DNA from: Dermatophagoides farinae
Lineage: Eukaryota; Arthropoda; Arachnida; Sarcoptiformes; Pyroglyphidae
Reading direction: 5' to 3'
DNA: 64,000 nucleotides
Assembly (NCBI RefSeq): GCF_024713945.1
Contig: NC_134681.1
Location: 5,247,501 to 5,311,500, forward strand
Position 1 is the first letter of the stretch; every line of letters starts with the position of its first letter. Both the position numbers and the translations under genes were made by a program. Positions 2,696 through 61,964 of this stretch are shown here, piece by piece. The notes under the pieces were generated by a model, which did no database searches, was not told the DNA's origin, and saw only the letters and a list, made by a program, of their open reading frames with translations.

Positions 2696-4848
2696 TATGA
2701 GTTGATTTGAATATTATAAGAATTTAGTTCACGAACGAATATAAATGATGGATGAATAGTGGAGTTTGGTTACGATGTTCGACGCGATTCGATTGCTGTA
2801 CGACTCGATGCTAACACGATACGATCGTTTGTGAATCTGGGCAAAAATTACGACGCCTGTTTTATAGTCGGCCAGAGCAAAGTCGAGGCCTGTACCGTTA
2901 TTGATGGCCGGGTGTGTGCGTTGTATTCATCAACCAAAAACAAGTGCCTCGCCTGATGTAATACAGTAAATAGCAACAGGCTTGCAATTGCATCCGATTG
3001 GCATCATCCACCCATCGGCCATGGTGGCAGTGTCGGCCAATGACGCCATCATGGAAGATTCTTTTTTACCAGAATGACTTAATTCTTAATTCTGCTGCCA
3101 ACTCCTATTCATCCATCTATGTAAGCAATGATGATTACCACACTCGACAATGGTGGAGACAATGAGTGTGCTTGGCAAGAGTGGTTCCAACTTGTCATCC
3201 TATCCAATCAAATCAGCATATAGAGAATAACCGAATATTCATATGCATGTACGCCCTCCAGTTACATTTTTAGAACGGGTGCAGTTTCCATTCTCGTTGT
3301 GTTACGGTGATAAATTGATTATTAGACAGCTAAACGAGCAAAATAACTCGATACTAGCAGTGAAAAACAAACGGACGGGACACACCGACTATGGTGGTAA
3401 ACAGCCAACAAATTCGACATTCCAAACTTCATGCCAGATTATTACTAGAAATGGATGAAATTGCCACCAACGCATCATAATATTAATGCAATATAGTCTG
3501 GCCAAAAACCAACAAGCCAGTTAATTACAACAAATTCCCAAACGCCAAATCATACATCACCACACACACACACACGCCTGACACTCCCCACCAAAGAATC
3601 CAACGAAGACATTTGATTGCAATATGGTTGATGATGGCCAAACATTTTTGCCAAATAATACCTAATGATGATGATAACTAAATTACATTACTATCAATAA
3701 ATTGCTAATAAAACCATTTAGACGGTCAGATGGCAAGATTTCGCAGTTATTATGCTCAAGTATATGAATCGTTTTATTTTCTTCAATAAGATATATTCAA
3801 CGCCAATCAATACCATGAAAAAAATTGATTATCCAATCGAAACGGCATCTCGATTCTGACATTCAAAAAGATTGGTTTATAGTCATCAGACATGCATAGT
3901 TTGATTCTTCATCCCACTAGGAAGTACTTCAAGGTCGAAGGCATTTGGACATTGGAATTCCTGTACTATGGTTTGACATTGTGGGTTTGTTTCTACTTGA
4001 TTGACAGGCTATCATACTATCATAGGAAAGAAATGAAACCATTGTTGATCGATCAAGTGCTGACAGCCGTCATGACAATGATGAATGCTGAATCGATGCC
4101 AGTCGAATTGGCATAGTTCGCCAAAAAAAAAACTTGTCCATTTTAAATGATATTATCATGAGCTTGTACTGAATATTCTCATGGGTTTTTTTTGGTTTGG
4201 TTGGGTTGTTGAATGTCGGTGTGTGTGTGTGTGATCGACAGTTCGGATAGTGATTATAATGATTTCTAAAAATAGTGTCGCCAATTCGTCGTTCATGGTG
4301 GAGACTATGTTTTCAAACAACGACAACATCACAATTTCGTGTGTGTGTGTGTGTGTGTTGCATAGATATCAGAAATTACGCTCGTTTCATGCAAATAGTT
4401 TACTTTTAAAGGAATTTGTTGGCTGGCACGAATGGAATGTTTCTTTAGCAAGTCATTTTCGATGACGGTAATCATCACTACAGATAGTGTAATAACCATT
4501 AGTTCTCATCAGTCATGATTGCATTAGTAGCTGACATTTACACGTTTAATCAAAAGTACAATCATGTCAATCTGGGATTTTTTTATAGTCCATTCCATGT
4601 TTAAAAGGTTTGATCTGTACAAAAATCAAAACCAGGAACAGAGAAAAAACCAAATGGAACCTAATGTAAATTTATGGTGAAAGAATCGAATTTTTACATA
4701 TTTCGAAATTGAAAACATGACAAATGCATTGATAGCATAGATCACAATGAATTCCAAGAATTAAATAACAACAATATCCACAAAGAATAATCTAGTAATC
4801 AAATGATGATGACAAATTCAGGTATTTTTTTTACAAAGCCATTTAATC
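2696..4848. other. Intergenic DNA, no supported gene
   Basis: About 2.2 kb between transgelin and TMA7. Short open frames here have no recognisable domain and no consistent splice partners. Visible features are a CA run near 3562-3575, a GT run near 4217-4231 and a longer GT run near 4339-4357. Confidence 0.6.
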
Positions 4849-21300: not shown

Positions 21301-21486
21301 AGCTAATTTCTATGTGAGACTGACAAGCATAATGTTGTTGATTCATTAGTAGCCACTATTATAATAAATTCAAATTGGCTCTAGAGATGTTTTATTTCTC
21401 AAGATGGCATTACAGTCTAGAGTCTAGACTTTAGAGAAAATAATTTCTTTTTTGGTCAAACTTTCATTACCAATATCTAGAGTCTA

Positions 21487-21670
21487 AAATGAGTTCCAGA
21501 TACTAAGCCCAAATTCATTTAGAAAAAAAAACCTTTTCTCTATTTAATCGTGGAAAATGTTTTTGTTTTGTTTTCTATGAAAAATCTGGTTAACGAAGCT
21601 TCGAAAAAACCCTTTCTCTCATAGAACGTAATGTATTTTACCAATGAAAACTTTTTTAATCATTCAATGT
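21487..21670 (+). repeat. Dispersed repeat, copy A (related to 45796-45966)
   Basis: This stretch shares two blocks with 45796-45966 in the same orientation and order. One block begins AAAATGAGTTCCAGATA. About 130 bases on, another runs from GAAGC through CGTAATGTATTTT to a CTT.TTTAAT end. The linking sequence is T/A-rich and diverged. I see no terminal repeats, so the family is unknown. Confidence 0.55.
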
Positions 21671-22849: not shown

Positions 22850-24352
22850 TCAACAACCGGGTATTTTGGTATGATCAATACATGTCCGACTTACTTCGTC
22901 AAATGCCTGTAAGTGATTGGCACAATGATGCACGGTTTTCTCCAGTCCAAAATCGCCTTTTTTGCATTCGTAGTATGTGGCACAATAGGTCTTATCGCGG
23001 AAGAATCCTTCTTCATGGCAATGAAACACGCCTGGTATATCGGTCACATGTTCTGTTGTATGTGTGACTGGAGGAAGTGTAACGACGGTCGGTTCGGTTA
23101 CCACGCCATGATAATAGTTCGATTGGATAGCATGCAACAAAGGGTTTTTATCACCACAAACGCCGTGCACATCTTCGTTGGACAATGTGTAGACTGACAT
23201 TCCAGCATATCCTTGTTGGGTTATGTTTTTTGCTTTTTCACCAAGTGTATGTCGGTCTTCGAAAGAGATCCATTCTGCATGGTTGCTATGCACATAGACA
23301 GCGTAAATTGCGGTATTATCATGATCACGAGTAATGGTGAATGCATTCGTTTCGGCCTGAATCTGAACGCACAATTCGTTGTAGCTAAGGAAACCATCAG
23401 TCTGTGTAAACTGACCTCGTGGGCCTGGTCCACTAGCTTTATCGCCAATGTCCTGTTTGTTCATTTTCTCGAGAATCCAGGTACGTGCATAAAATGGTAC
23501 AGCCATGACCATCTTATGACGTGGAGCGCCTCGTTTGTGGTAAGCTTCTAGCGTTTTGAGTTGTTCAGGAAACGGAGAAGCATGACCGACCGTATGGGCC
23601 CATGATCCAGTGTAATCCAGACTAAGCACGTTCATAAAATCGACATAGTTGGAGATGGCAGGAATGTTATAGTTATCGTATGATGCGATCGTTGCCGGCA
23701 AGGTAACACCCATCACAAACGAGGTGTGAGCAAACTTTTCGTCGAATTTGTCCAACAATTTAATGAAATTATCACTATCTTTGGCTTGCATGCCAGACCA
23801 ATCAATCATGACACCATCGAAACCATAACGAGTCATAAGATCAACTGTGCTAACAACAAACGTTTCCCGATAATGTTCTACCGCTGCAGTCTTGGAAAAT
23901 TGATCGGACATAGTCGAACCACCGACGGCGATCATGGCTTTGGCGTTGCCCTTATGCTGCGTGAAATGTTCCATGTCATCTGGTGTGTGGATATGAATAT
24001 TACAAAAAAAATCAGCAAAATGACATAAAGACTTACGTAAATCTTTCATAAGATATTCATCCAATAGTTTAATCTCATGAGTGGCAGCATCAATGCCGAA
24101 ATAAGAGTAGACAATGTGAGTACACAACGATGTATCTAGGGAAGCGAGCCATCAGTCAGTATGAATCGATTGTATACAAACAAAAAACAAACCTATGTCT
24201 TCGGGATCCATTTTGCCTTCACCTTGGCGCCAATGTACCCAAGATTCATAGTAACATACAGTTTTAGGTTCCAAAGTTGCCACATTCGGACGAATATTTG
24301 AACCGAAACAAGCGGCAAGTACGGCCAATACAGTCAAAGAGAATCGAGTCAT
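22850..24352 (-). CDS. Der f 18: Chitinase-like allergen Der f 18 (GH18, catalytically dead)
   Basis: Three exons, 24193-24352, 24037-24135 and 22850-23979, give 462 residues. I recognise this as mite group 18 allergen Der f 18. A signal peptide (about 1-25) precedes a GH18 barrel, followed by a Thr/Val/Pro-rich linker and a C-terminal CBM14 chitin-binding domain with six Cys (about 405-462). The GH18 motif DxxDxDxE reads D141-GVMIDW-S148: the proton donor Glu is Ser and the second Asp is Met144. The protein should therefore bind chitin without cleaving it. It is found in the mite gut and is presumed to interact with the peritrophic matrix or food chitin (established for the family, not seen here). 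A TATA box lies about 60 bases upstream. Confidence 0.97.
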
Positions 24353-25460: not shown

Positions 25461-26481
25461 ATGGTTTTGGGACAATCGCTTATCGTCATATTGACAGCTT
25501 TGACAGTGTCCATTTGCTCAGGTAGATCATCACTGTTGATGTGTATAACAATTGTGATAAATCAAACTCATAATAGATCCAGATGTAGATCCACAGATAC
25601 TATACACAACTGAAGCCTTCTATACGCCCTTATTGCTTAATCGAACTGGATGGTCATTTGGTGGTGTACCAGTCACCCAATTAGAGGTGATGCCTTCGTT
25701 GAGTGGTCATGCCGATCTGCTTAATTGGATGTTCTACTTTCGCCGGCCAAACTCACCGATTGGTTTCATATATGGCACCCCACCACTCAATGACGATGGT
25801 GACATAGACATTGATCTTGTCATACTGAACCGTGTCACCTTTAACACGACCAGCTACCGATTAAAATATCGAATACTCAATCGAGATGGTGAGTCAAGTT
25901 CGTATTATATGGCCAATTCACTCACTCATTTACTGTTATCTTTGATCGTCAGAGATCTACAAGTTTCAAGTGGAGGTAAATGAAATGACTTTTGAAATAT
26001 TGTCACAGTGAAATATACATTCTTACTTATAGATGAAATTCTTTGATATGGACATTGAAGACTTTTTCAATGGTGGCATGCTGACCACAGTTCAAGATAT
26101 TTTTGCAAATCGTTTATGGCAGAGTGGTGATCACAACGCTAACTCAGTATACGTAACTCAAGTTGCCCGGCCGATTCATGTAGGCGGGAGATTTCCGCTC
26201 GATCCAAGCGAGAAAGAATGGTATTTTACAGATGTAAATACGACTTACTATAGTACTAATGATCTTTTTTCCATTTCAACAGTGTGGTCATTCGAGTGGG
26301 CTGTAACCATAATTTCACTCAGCAATTGTATCGACTGGAAAGCGAAGTTCGTCAGATCAAAAACCGTGATCCATGTCCCAAACACTACAAGGCTACCACC
26401 GTTGAGTATGTGTTCCGAGAACGAAAATTACACGTAGATTGGTGTAGTTTCAAATTAATTAGCCCGTCGACAATTGAATGA
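25461..26481 (+). CDS. Scgalpha: Alpha/epsilon-type sarcoglycan ectodomain without membrane anchor
   Basis: Five exons, 25461-25521, 25577-25888, 25953-25975, 26033-26220 and 26283-26481, join in phase to give 260 residues. Exon 1 is a signal peptide. The rest matches the extracellular part of alpha/epsilon-sarcoglycan: a cadherin-like segment (PIGFIYGTPP, DIDLVILNRVT), then MKFFDMDIEDFF, the RPIHVGGRFPL segment and a conserved Cys region ending HVDWCSFKLI. Sarcoglycans are part of the dystrophin complex of muscle and nerve. Vertebrate and fly members continue with a transmembrane helix and cytoplasmic tail (human epsilon is 437 residues). Here the frame stops 10 residues after the WC motif, and I see no hydrophobic exon in the next 240 bases. 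The product would be secreted unless a distant exon is missed. Confidence 0.85.
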
Positions 26482-27935: not shown

Positions 27936-27943
27936 TGCTAGAG
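27936..27943. repeat. Left 8-bp target-site duplication TGCTAGAG
   Basis: TGCTAGAG directly precedes the left end of the hAT-type element and is repeated exactly at 29936-29943. The sequence fits the nnnTAnnn pattern reported for Buster-clade hAT insertions. Confidence 0.85.
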
Positions 27944-28247
27944 CAGTCATTCTCAACCACTGTGCCGCGGCACTTTTGTGTGCCGCGAAATTCTAAGATT
28001 GTGCCGCCAAATTTTAGATTTAATAAAATGAAAATATTTTTTGTTTTGATACATTTGAATATTATGGTAATCCTGAATCAAAAACATGTACTTCGATTAG
28101 TCAAATATCTATTAATAGTTGTGCGAATTGTTTGTAGTGGAACCAACATAGGAAAAATAAATATAATTAAACAAACAAATAAAAGCAATTCTTCTTTAAA
28201 CAATTTTTTATTAATCAATGTTTTACAAAAAGTGCTAGATTCTAGAA

Positions 28248-28715
28248 ATGGCAAGTCCAAACTAACACGACCAGTTCAGAATTCAAAATCGAGAAAATAA
28301 CAAATCCAAACTAACACGATCAGTTCAGAATTCAAAATTCACAATCGAGAAAAAGGCAAATCCGATCTAATACGATCAGTACAAAATCAAGAAAATAACA
28401 AATCCAACCTAACACGACCAGTTCAGAATCGAGAAAATAACAAATCCAAACTAACACGATCAGTTCAGAATTCAAAATTCACAATCGAGAAAAAGGCAAA
28501 TCCAAACTAACACAACCAGTTCCGAATTCAAAATTCAAAATGGAAAAAATGGTAAGTCCAAACTAACACGACCAGTTCAGAATTCAAAATTCACAATCGA
28601 GAAAAAGGCAAATCCGACCTAACACGATCAGTACAAAATCAAGAAAATAAATCCAACCTAACACGACCAGTTCAGAATCAAAAAAATAACAAGTCCAAAC
28701 TAAAACGACCAGTTC
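28248..28715 (+). repeat. Minisatellite array, left arm (about 10 units of 39-56 bp)
   Basis: Each unit carries the core CTAACACGACCAGTTCAGAA, then ATTCAAAATTC (optional), then TCGAGAAAAT and CAAATCC. Unit lengths differ mainly by presence or absence of the AATTCAAAATTCAC block. Open frames through it are repeat artefacts. Confidence 0.9.
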
Positions 28716-28885
28716 ATCTTCAATGGCAGAACATCCGATACATATCGAATTAATTAAATGTAACAAACATTATTTAACTCTGAATCTTGGAAAACACAAT
28801 TCATCATTGAAAATAATTTTTAATGAATCTAAAAAACGGTATAGAAACCAACCAATTCTGGTAACTAATTCCAATAACTAACCAT

Positions 28886-29748
28886 CTGAACTGCTCGTGT
28901 TAGGTTGGATTTGTTATTTTCTCGATTCTGAACTGATCGTGTTAGGTTGGATTTGTTATTTTCTCGATTCTGAACTGCTCGTGTTAGGTTGGATTTGTTA
29001 TTTTCTCGATTCTGTATTTTGAATTCTGAACTGCTTGTGTTAGGTTGGATTTGTTATTTTTTTGATTTTGAATTCTGAACTGGTCGTGTTAAGTTTGACT
29101 TGTTATTTTTTTTATTTTGAATTTTGAATTCTGAACTGGTCGTCTTAGGTTGGATTTGTTATTTTCTCGATTCTGAACTAGTCGTGTTAGTTTGGATTTG
29201 CCATTTTTTTGATTTTGAATTCTGAACTGGTCGTGTTAAGTTTGACTTGTTATTTTTTTTATTTTGAATTTTGAATTCTGAACTGGTCGTCTTAGGTTGG
29301 ATTTGTTATTTTCTCGATTCTGAACTGATCGTGTTAGGTTGGATTTGTTATTTTCTCGATTCTGTATTTTGAATTCTGAACTGGTCGTTTTAAGTTTGAC
29401 TTGTCATTTTCTCGATTGTGAACTGGTCGTGTTAGGTCGGATTTGCCTTTTTCTCGATTGTGAATTTTGAATTCTGAACTGGTCGTGTTAGGTCGGATTT
29501 GCCTTTTTCTCGATTGTGAATTTTGAATTCTGAACTGGTCGTGTTAGTTTGGACTTACCATTTTTTCCATTTTGAATTTTGAATTCTGAACTGGTTGTGT
29601 TAGTTTGGATTTGCCATTTTCTCGATTGTGAATTTTGAATTCTGAACTGGTCGTGTTAGTTTGGACTTGTCATTTTCTCGATTGTGAATTTTGAATTCTG
29701 AACTGATCGTGTTAGGTTGGATTTGTCATTTTCTCGATTCTGAACTGG
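28886..29748 (-). repeat. Minisatellite array, right arm, inverted (about 19 units)
   Basis: This is the same unit as 28248-28715 in reverse complement (TCTGAACTGGTCGTGTTAGG). It is nearly twice as long as the left arm. Neighbouring units are often near identical (for example around 29420-29560), which points to recent local duplication. Confidence 0.9.
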
Positions 29749-29935
29749 AATAAACGAATTAACAACAAATACACTACATACTGTTATTTTTGTAGTACAT
29801 ATTATATATTATTTTATTTAGCACATTTAAAATCATTATCATAATCTATTTTACGCAGTGCTTTTTCTTTGTGTGCCGCCAAATTTTGAAATCGTAAAAT
29901 GTGTGCCGCAACAAAAAAAAGGTTGAGAATCACTG

Positions 29936-29943
29936 TGCTAGAG
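29936..29943. repeat. Right 8-bp target-site duplication TGCTAGAG
   Basis: Exact copy of 27936-27943, immediately after the CTG end of the element. Confidence 0.85.
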
Positions 29944-43835: not shown

Positions 43836-46037
43836 TGCAAAAGGAAGTGTGGTCAGCTGTCAGTCCGTGGCAAGGAGCCAGAGAAAATATGACGATCCAA
43901 TTCGAATGATGAATAGATGCGCTGATGGACAAAGAAATTCAGCTCTCATGGACGATCTGGCATCGAGACAACTAGTCAGCACAGGATTAGCATCATTGGA
44001 TGTGCAAGCAAACATGCAGAGGCGCCAATCATTGTGCCATTGATAAAGCAAGACAAAGTCCAATTTCTGAATCGCTGACTGGATCTATACTATACTTGTT
44101 CCCAGTTATTCGTTCGATCTAATCTAATCCTGTCAAATTTCGCTTGCTGAGTGGTAACAAACGTACAAATATCGCGACTGGTTATGTAGCAATTGATTTT
44201 GATGGACATACCAAGCATAGTCGTCACAAAGAGTTTGGATAAGCAGGAAGTACAAGGTTACTAACCTCAATGTTGATAATGATCCATCGCTCGATTGCTT
44301 GCCCGTTATAATATATAGAGCAAAAATTGTAGAAGATTCTGGTCCGATCCGATCTGGATGTTTAGCAATATTCAACTGACTGCTTGATGATTTGTCATCT
44401 GTCTGCTTTGCTCATCATTTCTCGTCGATTTACGATGAAGATAAACGAGCGCGATACGCCTGCGTCATAGTTACCAACGTCATTGCCGTTCATCAAGGAT
44501 GCGGTTGCTGACCACTAGTCGAACGATCGATTCCATCAATCATACAGTCAAACTTTTCGATAGCAAGCTTGGTTACTGAATTTAATCTTTATCATAATGA
44601 TGATGATGATGATGATACAAAGAAATGGTTTCCTGTGAATACTGCAGGCGCCACCTTGTGTAGTACACATGTCTGATATGGCAATGCTTGCAGATGATAA
44701 TGGCTATAACTGGATCTTTGGTCACAGTTTAACTGTTCATACAATTCATCAACGAGAACTGGGCGTCACATTCCATGATAACTTGTTACACATGTTGAGT
44801 CGTGTATCTTGCTGGCCATGAATGGTTGTCAATCCAGTTTGTGTCGTCACTGTTGAAAAGTATTTTTTTTTCTGGGACATATATATTTTTTTTTTTTTTG
44901 AAATTCTTTTGTCAACAGCATTTCATTTTTAAAAGTATTCTTATTTGAAATGAAAAAAAAAATTCATTTTTGTTTTTGGTCCATCCCCTTCGCTGATGAT
45001 ATAATTAAATTTTTATTGTTACCAAAAATTTTTTTTTTTGAATGAAAATTTTCACCAAAATAACAGTTACAATTACGAACTTTCTTTCAGAGATTACTTG
45101 TTCGTAAATCGGGTAAAAATCACTTGAATTTCATACAATATGATGATAATAATAATAATAATAAACAGATAAAATCCAAGATGCCTTGAAGAAAACATTA
45201 TAACAATACACTGTAAATATATATTATTCTCTTTTATTTTTTAAACAAAGCAAATCTTTCGCATAGAAAAGCATTTTTTTTTTTTTGGATGTAGATATGT
45301 TGAAAAGCATCGCGCCATGCATTTTGTACGCAGAAAAAAAGTGCGCAATCGCCTACAAACATGCATGCATATTGAGAATTTTTAAAATGATGATGATGAC
45401 GACGATACCCATAATATATTGAAATGAATGCAATATAACAAAGTGAATAGAAATTTTCAATAAACGATATGAAATGATAAACAACAACAATATCTGTACA
45501 TTTTCGAAAAAAAATAGAAATGGAATTTTTTTTTCATGCGATAAGATAACAAAAAACTATCTGTGCAAAATTGAACATGTGAAATTATGTGAAAATTTCT
45601 TCAAAACCAAAATCTTGATTCTGACTGTCTGTGTGTGTGTGTGTGTTACTGGTTTGATTTGACTTTTTTTTTCTATAAATTCTGATTGCATGCTTTGAAG
45701 ATTTTTTTTTTAATCCTCATGATGACATTATCAAGATGAATTTTCTCTTGGATAATTTGAAACTTTGATCTTAAAAAAACTTGACCAATTTTAAAAAATG
45801 AGTTCCAGATATTGGGCAAAAACTCGTTTTAAAAAAAACAACTATCTTTGAGAATATTTTTTCAATTCTATTAAAAAAAAAAATGTTTTGAGAAGCATCA
45901 AAAAATTCTTTTCTTCATGAGATCGTAATGTATTTTGCAAAGTGTAAACTTCTTTAATGATTGAGAATAAAGTGAATCATAACTAATGAGAATAAAACAT
46001 GTTGAATGAATAATGTGCTAATCCAATGACATTTCAT
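43836..46037. other. Intergenic DNA with simple repeats and a dispersed repeat copy
   Basis: About 2.2 kb. It contains GAT triplet runs (44598-44617), AAT-type triplets (45142-45165), a GT run (45629-45643), many T-tracts and the second copy of the dispersed repeat (45796-45966). No coding exon is supported. Confidence 0.5.
45796..45966 (+). repeat. Dispersed repeat, copy B (related to 21487-21670)
   Basis: It has the same two conserved blocks as copy A in the same order and spacing: AAATGAGTTCCAGATA at the start and CGTAATGTATTTT near the end, with diverged A/T-rich sequence between. No terminal inverted repeat or target duplication could be seen by eye. Confidence 0.55.
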
Positions 46038-55498: not shown

Positions 55499-57658
55499 AT
55501 GTTTCTCATAACAATTGTCGCCATTTTCATTATATCATCATTGGCAACATATTTGCTATTGAAATTATCATTTGAAGGTAGACGGCTATTTTGTCAACAA
55601 TTTCATGATCTGTATAAGTTATTGACCGATCGAGACAAAATGATCCGTTGGTTTAATAGTAATGTTAATATTTTCTATCATTATTTCTGCAAGGTATGTT
55701 TGTCAAGATATTGGTTTTTTTTATTTCTTACACTAGATTTTTTTGGCTATTTTGGCCAAATAGAAAATTGATCCTAATAGTACCCGACATGGTGGTGAAT
55801 TAGTTGCCTCTGTATTACATTCACACGGTGTTCAACGTGTATTTACATTATCCGGTGGTCATATATCACCTATTTTGACTGCATCAGAAAAACGTGGTAT
55901 ACAAGTGATCGATGTTCGTCATGAAGTGAATGCAGTTTTTGCTGCCGATGCTACGGCTCGTTTATCCGGTGTTCCAGGCGTTGCTGTTGTCACGGCTGGT
56001 CCAGGTGTAACTAATACTGTAACAGCTATTAAAAATGCACAAATGGCTGAATCTCCTGTCATTTTACTTGGTGGTGCTGCAGCTTCATTGCTTAAAGGTC
56101 GAGGCGCATTACAAGATATTGATCAATTGTAAGTAATAATTTTACATTGATTATCTTGATCTAATGATTTTTATTTTCATCTATTATAGATCATTATTCA
56201 AACCAATAACCAAGAAAGCTTATAGTATAACCAAAGTTCGGGATATTGTTCCCTGTATGAGAGAAGCATTTCAAATTGCCCAAAGTGGAACACCTGGTCC
56301 AGTTTTTGTAGAATTGCCTATCGATGTACTATATCCATATAGTGTTGTTAGTAAAGAATTTGTTGCCGCTTCTAGTTCACGATCGATGGCTGGCAAAATT
56401 GTCAATTGGTATCTGAATAATTATATGAAAAATTTATACGCTGGAGCATTCGATAGAGAACATAATGTAGAGCCATTGCCATTGGATATACCTTATGCAA
56501 GTGAATCGGATGTTTCAAAAGCTGTTGAAATGATTACAAAGGCTAAAAAACCATTGATGATTCTTGGATCTCAATCTGTATTGCCTCCGATTGGTGCTGA
56601 AAAATTGCGTAAAGCTATTGAAGATATTGGAATTCCAGTTTATTTGGGTGGAATGGCACGTGGTTTATTGGGACGTAAATCCACAATCAATATGCGTCAA
56701 GCACGTCGAGATGCTCTCAAAGAATGCGATCTTCTTATTCTAGGTGGTAGTGTTGCCGATTTTCGTCTTTCTTATGGGCGAGCGTTTTCACGAAAATCTA
56801 AAATCGTTTCAATCAATCGAGACAAAGAACAATTGTATAAAAATACAAAAATTTTCTGGAATCTTGATCTACCAATTCAAGCTGATGCCGCTAAATTTTT
56901 GGTTGATGTTGCAAATAAATTAAAAGGATCATTTCAAGTTGATACCACATGGCTGGAAACTCTTCAAGAACGTGATCGTCAAAAAGAAGCTAAAGCGTTG
57001 CAAATGGCATCCGATGTACCTGACAACCATCTCAATCCTTTGGATGTTTGTATTTCGCATATCCATATGTATTATATATTATTTAATTCTAATCTTTTTT
57101 TCTGTTTAGATTTTGCATAAACTTGAAAATACATTGGGCGATAAAACAATCTTAGTTGCCGACGGTGGTGATTTTGTTGGAACTGCTTCGTACATATTAC
57201 GTCCACGTGGTCCATTATGTTGGCTAGATCCTGGAGCATTCGGTACACTTGGTTGTGGTGGTGGTTTTGCTTTAGGCGCTAAACTTTGCCGACCAGATCA
57301 TGATGTTGTCATTATTTATGGTGATGGTTCCCTTGGATATACATTGATCGAATTCGATTCGTTCATGCGACATAAAACACCTGTGATGGCCTTAGTCGGT
57401 AATGATGCCTGTTGGACACAGATTGCACGTGAACAAGTACCAATGCTTGGCTCAGATGTTGCCTGTAATTTGGCTTATTCATCATATGAAAAATGTGTTG
57501 AAGGTTTTGGTGCAACTGGCATACTTTTGGACACTGATGAACGTACTAAAGTTGCTGAAATTTTAGAAGAAGCTAAAAAACTAAGCCGTACACAACCGGT
57601 TTTGATTAATGCAAAAATTTCAAAAAGTAAATTCCGTGAAGGAAGTATCTCTGTCTAA
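55499..57658 (+). CDS. ILVBL: Acetolactate synthase-like protein ILVBL (HACL2), ThDP enzyme
   Basis: Four exons, 55499-55693, 55764-56128, 56190-57045 and 57110-57658, give 654 residues (human 632). An N-terminal membrane anchor (about 1-22) precedes three ThDP-enzyme domains. In the PYR domain the catalytic Glu119 is in [14 protein letters not shown], with [15 protein letters not shown] following. The central domain has [15 protein letters not shown], and the PP domain has the metal/ThDP motif GDGS (543-546) through ND. Human ILVBL is an ER enzyme that cleaves 2-hydroxyacyl-CoA in fatty acid alpha-oxidation. Codon use is more A/T-rich than in most neighbours. Its 3' end faces the Dlish-like gene, only 108 bases away. 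Confidence 0.94.
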
Positions 57659-59837: not shown

Positions 59838-60108
59838 CGCGAGTACTCGCGATTTTGGCGAGTATTTCGGCTATTTTTTGGTGACTATTTGAGTGTATAT
59901 AGCCGAACAATCGAAATTTTGCGAGTACTCGCATTTTTCGCGAGTACTCCGACTATATCCACACAAAAAGTCGCTAAAAAATAGCCGAATACTCGCAAAA
60001 ATCGCGAGTACTCACAAAGTTTCGATTGTTTGGCTACATACACTCAATTAGTCCAGCAAAATAAAGTGTAAATAGCCTGTTTACACGCAAAAATCGCGAG
60101 TACTCGCG
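59838..60108. repeat. Cluster of GAGTACTC palindromes in an A-B-A'-B' arrangement
   Basis: The 14-bp perfect palindrome CGCGAGTACTCGCG occurs at 59838-59851 and 60095-60108. Shorter forms occur at 59921-59932, 59939-59949 and 60003-60013. Longer segments are also repeated: 59841-59885 matches the reverse complement of about 59969-60012, and about 59886-59932 matches the reverse complement of about 60004-60050. The order is A, B, A-inverted, B-inverted, so alternative hairpins are possible. CpG-rich palindromes stand out in this A/T-rich DNA. The class of element is unknown. Confidence 0.8.
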
Positions 60109-60611: not shown

Positions 60612-61066
60612 AAATACGATGCTCATCATTTTAAATAAAATAGACGCCAATTACCCAAGTTTTTACCCAAAAAATATAATGAACTACGCTTGTGATGCAA
60701 AAAAATGGAATTTGTATTTCATGTATTTTTTCAGAAATTTGTATGGTACACTTATAAAAATATCAAACGGTCTAATGACCAAAAAAAGAAAGACAAATGA
60801 AAAAGAATCCTTTATAAATTAAATTGTATTTTTATCAAGTCAATTATAAATAAAATGGTTACATTGTTTGAGCTTAATCGTTCATGACTATCATGATTAA
60901 GATAGAACAAGAAAAAGCGATGAGTGTCATACGATATTTTGTCCGAGGTCGACTATAAATTTATTTAATTCTAAGGAAGAACAAAGTGATAACTCTTGGT
61001 CATCTGTTGAATCAATTCTGTTGTTTTTGCTTTTTGTTTTTAAAACACTCATGAATTCAAAATAAA

Positions 61067-61613
61067 GAAAATGACAAATTTCCAAACTAACACGACCTGT
61101 TCAGAATCGAGAAAATGACAAATTTCCAAACTAACACGACACAGTTCAGAATCGAGAAAATGGCGAATCCAATCTAACACGACCAGTTCAGAATTCAAAA
61201 TTCAAAATCGAGAATTTTAGCAAGTCCAACCTAACACGACCAGTTCAGAATCGAGAAAATGACAAGTCCAACCTAACACGACCAGTTCAGAATTGGTTGG
61301 CGATGCTTTATTGATTACTTTCCCAATGATTGTAGTGGTTTCGATTTGCTCATCGCTGTCCACAGTGATATTATGGTCCCACACCACGGCATTTTCTTTT
61401 GTCACTTCATCTTGTTCGTTTATTACTGCTGCTGGTGATTTGTCATTCTTCACAATTCATAAACTGGTCGTGTTAGTTTGGACATTTGCCATTTTCTCGA
61501 TTTTGAATTTTGAATTCTGAACTGGTCGTGTTAGTTTGGGAATTTGTCATTTTCTTGATTTTGAATTCTGAACTGTTCGTGTTAGGTTGGATTTGTCATT
61601 TTCTCGATTGTCA
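61067..61613. repeat. Second opposed minisatellite locus (same unit as the hAT element) around a unique spacer
   Basis: Five direct units lie at 61067-61293 (CTAACACGACCAGTTCAGAA core) and three inverted units at 61462-61613, around a 168-bp spacer (61294-61461). The unit is the same as in 28248-29748, with extra variation (ACACAGTTC, TTTCCAAAC). I find no CAG...TTCTCAACC ends and no target duplication near it. The spacer has higher GC and is open on the minus strand (KSPAAVINEQDEVTKENAV region), so it may be captured unique sequence. Confidence 0.82.
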
Positions 61614-61964
61614 CTGGATAGATTTCAACATCACACATATAATTCAACTTTGATTCAATTTTGTTGGTCATTATTTCGGTCTCATAAAAACCAAACATTT
61701 TTCAGAATCGATATATTTGTTTTCACTGGGTACAATCTCATTCTCATTCATTTCATTATATCTTTTGAAAAATATCATGATCATGATTTATAATATAAAA
61801 TGGATAATGAGTGAAGATGGCAAAGTTACTAAAAAATTTTTCCATCTGTATATGGTCGTAAAATAAAAAAAATTGATCTACATTTTGTGTTCACTCAATT
61901 TTTATCGGGACATGTAAAATTCAATGTTTACCTGCATTGGCTAAATTGGCTATCGTTATAAGAC

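Follow-up and report, generated by a model that had tools for sequence, protein, structure and literature searches.

The window analysed here is a 64-kb stretch of a Dermatophagoides farinae contig. Positions 55764-57658 on its plus strand carry, in several frames, a thiamine-pyrophosphate enzyme that we take to be acetolactate-synthase-like; the Pfam family TPP_enzyme_M was matched on the scanned part (56140-57120). A GH18 chitinase-like protein is encoded on the minus strand at 22850-24151. It reads FDGVMIDWS at the signature FDxxDxDxE, with both the D of position 5 and the catalytic E replaced, and that E has been reported missing from group 18 mite allergens (PMC4993390). No RNA family reached its gathering score in the window and no tRNA was found in it with a bacterial model. 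The GC content of the window is 38.2%, against 30.4-30.6% for the D. farinae assemblies tabulated in PMC11074847.

At 27944-29935 lies a segment of 1992 bp with an exact 8-bp repeat, TGCTAGAG, on both sides. This 8-mer occurs twice in the window, each time adjoining the segment, and its complement does not occur. The segment begins and ends with 15-bp terminal inverted repeats, CAGTCATTCTCAACC and CAGTGATTCTCAACC, which match at 14 positions and share the pattern CAGT[CG]ATTCTCAACC. The significance of these ends was assessed with 1000 pairs of dinucleotide-shuffled 500-bp flanks. None of them reached both the exact duplication and 14 of 15 inverted bases, and the best value was 11. The real window was also scanned for exact 8-bp repeats at most 6 kb apart, and seven pairs with at least 11 of 15 inverted bases on their inner side were found. 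Besides the pair at the element, one pair in the window (59841-60013) reached 14/15, which is a counterpoint to the reading of the ends, though its 8-mer, GAGTACTC, is self-complementary and it lies inside a nest of palindromes. The left end, taken as 21 bases with up to three mismatches, matched once in the window.

The sub-terminal regions are marked by the motif GTGCCGC. There are five copies on the plus strand of the window and one complement, and all six are located inside the ends of the element (Table 1). A longer form, GTGTGCCGC, was found three times, compared with 0.13 expected. The five plus-strand copies point one way at both ends, without mirroring, and the mirroring of the ends themselves extends over 15 bp only: in the blocks that follow, 5, 1 and 2 of 15 positions match, and a gapped alignment beyond the terminal repeats scored 19, within the shuffle range. 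The preliminary description of this DNA had proposed the exact duplication, the 14/15 ends and the sub-terminal GTGCCGC motifs, and all three were borne out.

Table 1. Features of the element and of the second locus (positions in the window).
Feature	Position	Strand	Remarks
Left copy of target-site duplication, TGCTAGAG	27936..27943	.	sequence and shuffle control
Left terminal inverted repeat, CAGTCATTCTCAACC	27944..27958	+	14/15 against right end
Left sub-terminal region	27959..28236	.	GTGCCGC on + at 27962, 27980, 28001; complement at 27967
Left arm, 10 minisatellite units	28237..28716	-	core AACTGGTCGTGTTAG reads on - strand
Longest perfect arm-arm complement, 104 bp	28524..28627	.	pairs with 29483-29586
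Spacer between opposed arrays, 168 bp	28717..28884	.	
Right arm, 17 units and a stub	28885..29747	+	core on + strand; internal 147-bp higher-order repeat
Right sub-terminal region	29748..29920	.	GTGCCGC on + at 29873, 29903
Right terminal inverted repeat, CAGTGATTCTCAACC	29921..29935	-	14/15 against left end
Right copy of target-site duplication, TGCTAGAG	29936..29943	.	
Weak candidate element around second locus	60756..61775	.	AAAAATAT duplicated at 60756, 61768; 12/15 inner inverted repeats
Second locus, first array, 5 units	61053..61294	-	
Second locus, spacer, 159 bp, 41.5% GC	61295..61453	.	open for 53 codons on - strand
Second locus, second array, 3 units, opposite direction	61454..61611	+	

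The segment is best read as a single insertion, about 2.0 kb long, of a non-autonomous hAT-type element, because of its ends and duplication and because the scanned frames held no transposase. Members of the hAT superfamily have terminal inverted repeats of 5-27 bp and a total length under 4 kb (PMC3517528); the element falls within both limits, and its 8-bp target-site duplication agrees with the superfamily as well. Stop-to-stop frames of at least 35 aa were listed for the element, 29 in total, and the 11 of them given to Pfam produced no transposase-like match. The rows returned for the element translations were weak (E 0.0034 to 2.5, all below the curated cut-offs) and were discarded, and four scanned frames of the left sub-terminal region held no domain. 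The Buster group, to which Mar and TcBuster belong, has the duplication consensus nnnTAnnn (PMC3517528, PMC3499496). The duplication TGCTAGAG fits this consensus in what is one insertion only, and about 1/16 of random 8-mers would show the TA. The element possibly belongs to the Buster group; of the earlier assignment, the non-autonomous hAT-type part stands, and the Buster label is weak with one TA in one duplication.

The interior of the element is made of two opposed arrays of one minisatellite unit. Apart from the outermost unit of either arm, which continues into the flank, the units measure 42, 49 or 56 bp, and one measures 39 bp. The lengths of 42, 49 and 56 bp are multiples of seven that come from a small internal repeat, GAATTTTGAATTCT, present whole, in half or not at all. 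The higher-order repeat of the right arm contains a 124-bp exact copy. The earlier figures of about ten units in one arm and of a unit length of 39-56 bp agree with ours, and the roughly 19 units given for the other arm come down to 17 and a stub; the spacer, put at 170 bp, is present and 168 bp long. The predicted minimum free energy of the element as RNA was -826.8 kcal/mol, compared with -424.9 (sd 8.8) for 16 shuffles, and the predicted fold contains 440 arm-to-arm pairs. Together with the 104-bp perfect complement, this prediction supports the proposal of a giant imperfect hairpin.

We compared the two arms unit by unit. Their identity is about 73-89% in the aligned pieces, and they differ in unit number. 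A triplet of units is mirrored between them (28633, 28577 and 28521 against 29477, 29533 and 29589), and none of 1000 shuffles was as good; mirrored runs of other lengths were equalled in 15 (two units), 3 (four units) and 1 (five units) of 1000 shuffles. The unit order of the whole arrays is mirrored no better than chance (1269/3000 shuffles at least as good), and the reversed whole-array order scored above the mirrored one (737/3000 shuffles). Nor did the units of the element, 26 of the 27 being used, cluster by arm (1746/5000 permutations). Copying or conversion probably transferred part of one arm to the other, with reshuffling of the remainder, because a mirrored triplet exists while the whole order is unmirrored and the units show no clustering by arm. 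The view of the arms as one simple inverted duplication is partly right only: the triplet goes beyond the shuffles and the whole-array order does not. A tandem amplification of the unit from the terminal repeat was also considered and ruled out, since the similarity of the two is no better than that of shuffles (1604, 1999 and 1849 of 2000 as good).

A second opposed pair of arrays of the same unit, overlooked in the preliminary description, is located at 61053-61611, about 31 kb away. The opposed arrays are thus not special to the transposon, for the unit and its arrangement recur here without the ends: a window-wide pattern scan, allowing three mismatches for the end, detected neither a hAT-type end nor a GTGCCGC motif at the second locus. 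Its predicted fold is likewise far below that of shuffles (-241.3 compared with -123.3, sd 5.9, for 60 shuffles). The spacers and flanks of the two loci showed no similarity above background, the best match outside the arrays having an E value of 0.26, similar to that of many chance matches in this comparison. A 13-mer, CCAACCAATTCTG, is common to the spacer of the element and the inner edge of the second locus, and about half of it is array sequence.

The spacer of the second locus is richer in GC than each 500-base flank of the locus (28.2%). Its open stretch was examined against other DNA of the window, with the possibility in mind that the locus consists of two arrays around an exon. An open stretch of 53 codons was found at 553 of 12326 intergenic positions. 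The codon score of the spacer was 0.07, where the intergenic median is -0.11 and the coding median 0.18, and lies inside both ranges. One of the five other frames scores higher (0.10), and the frames flanking the spacer score like intergenic DNA (-0.09 and -0.10). The result for an exon is therefore mixed. The three frames of the second locus given to Pfam returned no match.

Candidate ends were also found around the second locus, at 60756-61775 (Table 1). Such ends were reached in 1 of 1000 shuffles. Among real AT-rich pairs from the window, 18 of 3860 matched them, and a sliding scan of the window reached 12/15 once more, at 3664-4809. The duplication involved, AAAAATAT, is of low complexity. 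We regard these ends as a weak lead only.

The units of the two loci were then compared with each other. All eight units of the second locus and 26 of the 27 units of the element were used; the outermost left unit of the element was left out, since it continues into flanking sequence. The mean distance between units was 0.146 within loci and 0.146 between loci, and 2375 of 5000 permutations gave a difference at least as large. Judged by these distances, the units of both loci are from one pool. Each locus has variants common to its own two arms, and a private variant of the second locus, a 2-base insertion, is present in four of its eight units, in both arms, and absent from all 27 units of the element (Fisher p 0.0013). 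Outside the arrays, stray unit cores, 15-base matches with no more than three mismatches, were found at 25841 and 50802 and were taken as chance.

With somewhat better than even confidence, we propose that a hAT-type element with a foldback-like interior most likely took up an opposed-array module that existed outside it. The second locus has an opposed pair without hAT ends, and for this reason we regard the array pair as a module that the hAT element took up. The opposed pair would be older than the hAT insertion, or independent of it. A small hAT element would have captured it, probably when a gap was repaired by copying or with a switch of template, as reported for animal elements with terminal inverted repeats (PMC8277862), and the composite would then have been brought to 27944 by a hAT transposase whose gene lies elsewhere. 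Unequal exchange inside the element may have altered the arms, as in the 147-bp higher-order repeat, and exchange or conversion between the arms may have led to the 104-bp perfect stretch and the mirrored unit triplet. Such animal elements are known to take up other DNA: 208 of the 370 reported Pack-TIRs are hAT elements, with a bias for nearby sources (PMC8277862). A DNA or RNA strand of the element could fold into a long imperfect hairpin, and we think that this hairpin is a passive by-product rather than a selected device; it would make the site unstable and might, on transcription, serve as a substrate for Dicer. Several points weigh against capture. The hAT ends are known from one copy in the 64-kb window, and the unmirrored order of the whole arrays means that the arms were reshuffled or never were one simple inverted duplication. 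The second locus might be a descendant of a hAT copy whose ends were lost. If the weak candidate ends at 60756-61775 are real, the second locus would be the interior of another element and not a free array. The earlier notion of a cargo, and of a carrier that spreads satellite units, fits the second locus, which equally allows the array pair to have spread in other ways.

The main rival runs in the opposite direction: the arrays were born inside the hAT family, like the tandem repeats in the arms of Tetris, a foldback element of Drosophila virilis, and opposed arrays elsewhere, the second locus with its lost ends among them, were seeded by that family or by what its decay left behind. The element has intact ends and more units than the second locus, and the TIR-220 repeats of Tetris gave rise to arrays outside that element (PMC4079207). 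The 13-mer common to the two loci points the same way, with the reservation given above on its array content. The absence of a hAT end and of GTGCCGC from the second locus argues against this direction, as do the background-level similarity of spacers and flanks and the failure of the unit to resemble the terminal repeat beyond shuffles. On balance we consider birth inside the hAT family unlikely, if worth keeping in view.

A less probable alternative makes the opposed pair a foldback cassette in its own right, one that disperses by jumping from carrier to carrier, with the second locus lying inside another element at 60756-61775. The occurrence of two opposed pairs with different spacers in 64 kb would suit such a cassette, as would the locus-private variants common to both arms of their locus and the candidate ends that 1 of 1000 shuffles attained. 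Against it, equally good ends are present in real AT-rich DNA and at one other place, the duplication is low-complexity, and only two loci are known. A wider form of this proposal concerns the host. In D. farinae, transposons are reported to be silenced by siRNAs made by Dicer, and Piwi to be lost (PMC5805368); annotated DNA transposons make up 0.09% of the genome (PMC11074847). Opposed one-unit minisatellite pairs might be a class of foldback cassette dispersed through the genome; exchange between the two arms of each pair would keep it mirrored, unrelated elements, hAT elements among them, would carry it, and a Piwi-less animal would thereby have many related hairpins for Dicer. We put this forward as speculation with the odds clearly against it. 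In a Piwi-less house dust mite, hairpins like those predicted here would lend themselves to tests of how siRNA production starts.

The predicted hairpins would be plausible Dicer substrates in such a mite, and a putative hairpin locus that the host uses to make siRNAs was weighed for this reason. The predicted fold lies far below shuffles, a siRNA pathway with master loci has been reported for dust mites (PMC5805368), and the reading frame of an M76 peptidase ends just upstream on the same strand. The words "hairpin" and "hAT" are absent from the main text of that report, and we hold a host-used locus to be improbable.

That the segment is a genuine Foldback or Mutator-type element, with an 8-10 bp duplication and long repeat-rich inverted arms, appears very unlikely. 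The duplications of Tetris are of this size, and most foldbacks seem to be Mutator elements according to the same authors (PMC4079207). The element does have long inverted arms with tandem repeats, but these arms do not reach its ends, where the mirroring is over at 15 bp and the gapped score is within the shuffle range; it was kept out of the Foldback class because its inverted arms stop short of the ends. Its ends also begin with CAG, like those of the hAT MITE Mar (PMC3517528).

Long-read assembly is known to fail at inverted repeats, and an artefact such as a chimeric read folded on itself would be a trivial source of the pattern. We give it hardly any credence, since the mirroring is confined to the arrays and leaves the flanks unmirrored, the arms differ in unit number and sequence, and the pattern occurs at two loci.

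By analysis of its structure, the element would work like a foldback transposon, with opposed repeat-built arms able to pair and exchange. Tetris and Galileo are the closest designs. Tetris is also non-autonomous, with opposed arms that are partly tandem repeats and duplications of 8-10 bp, and its repeat also occurs in arrays outside Tetris (PMC4079207). It differs in its repeat of about 220 bp, located in long terminal inverted repeats, and in its suggested Mutator affiliation (PMC4079207), whereas the mite element has a unit of 39-56 bp and inverted ends of 15 bp only. Galileo resembles the element in its long arms, whose internal tandem repeats expand independently on each side and for which arm exchange and conversion have been proposed (PMC3573991). 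Unlike the element, Galileo belongs to the P superfamily, its arms are the terminal repeats, and its internal repeat is about 210 bp (PMC3573991). Mar, a hAT/Buster MITE, shares with the element the 8-bp nnnTAnnn duplication, the short CAG ends, the lack of coding capacity and the AT-richness, but is 610 bp long, and the accessible text on it makes no mention of opposed arrays (PMC3517528). The Pack-TIRs, which are mostly hAT, likewise have inverted ends around sequence found elsewhere, with the nearby-source bias; their filler is non-TE and partly genic (PMC8277862), whereas that of the mite element is an opposed repeat pair. An outside source for the interior, as in a Pack-TIR, agrees with the recurrence of the unit and its arrangement at the second locus, though either direction is possible.

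The statement in the preliminary description that no element of this kind had been described needs qualification. Foldbacks with repeat arms have been described (Foldback, Galileo and Tetris), while a version with hAT ends was not found: a hAT element with opposed minisatellite arrays was absent from the literature matches listed, which were mostly open-access and whose text was partly available to us. The accessible parts of a placozoan repeat paper (PMC2871265) and of a review (PMC9659126) offered no relevant parallel, the latter beyond a table of known cases. Foldback structure may arise independently in different lineages (PMC4079207), and a foldback-like hAT case would add a lineage to it. 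The element would link foldback transposons with sequence-capturing hAT elements, both of them known themes, and within one 64-kb stretch an opposed repeat pair is present inside a transposon and another lies outside it. Whether dispersed minisatellites are transported as cargo could be tested cheaply on such a case.

Collections of microbial sequence were searched as well. In viral contigs, no match was obtained for any of three terminal patterns or for a 26-base unit pattern; a looser 19-base unit pattern matched nine contigs once each, which we judged to be chance by our own estimate. The unit pattern was absent from bacterial and archaeal genome contigs, and the terminal pattern had one match in them, in an Arthrobacter contig, again judged chance by our own estimate. 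Part of the right array (29415-29744) had no match among plasmids. The left end (27936-28240) matched an AT-rich stretch of one phage record over 62 bases at 82% identity (E 3e-8), and we tentatively put this down to base composition.

Two further repeats were noted in the window. A dispersed pair of about 180 bp, 68% identical, is located at 21486-21664 and 45795-45962. The palindrome nest mentioned above is a compact set of inverted repeats built on GAGTACTCGCGA at 59838-60108, about 1 kb from the second locus; its arms (59883-59949 and 59987-60053) are 87% complementary, and it looks like a separate small palindromic element.
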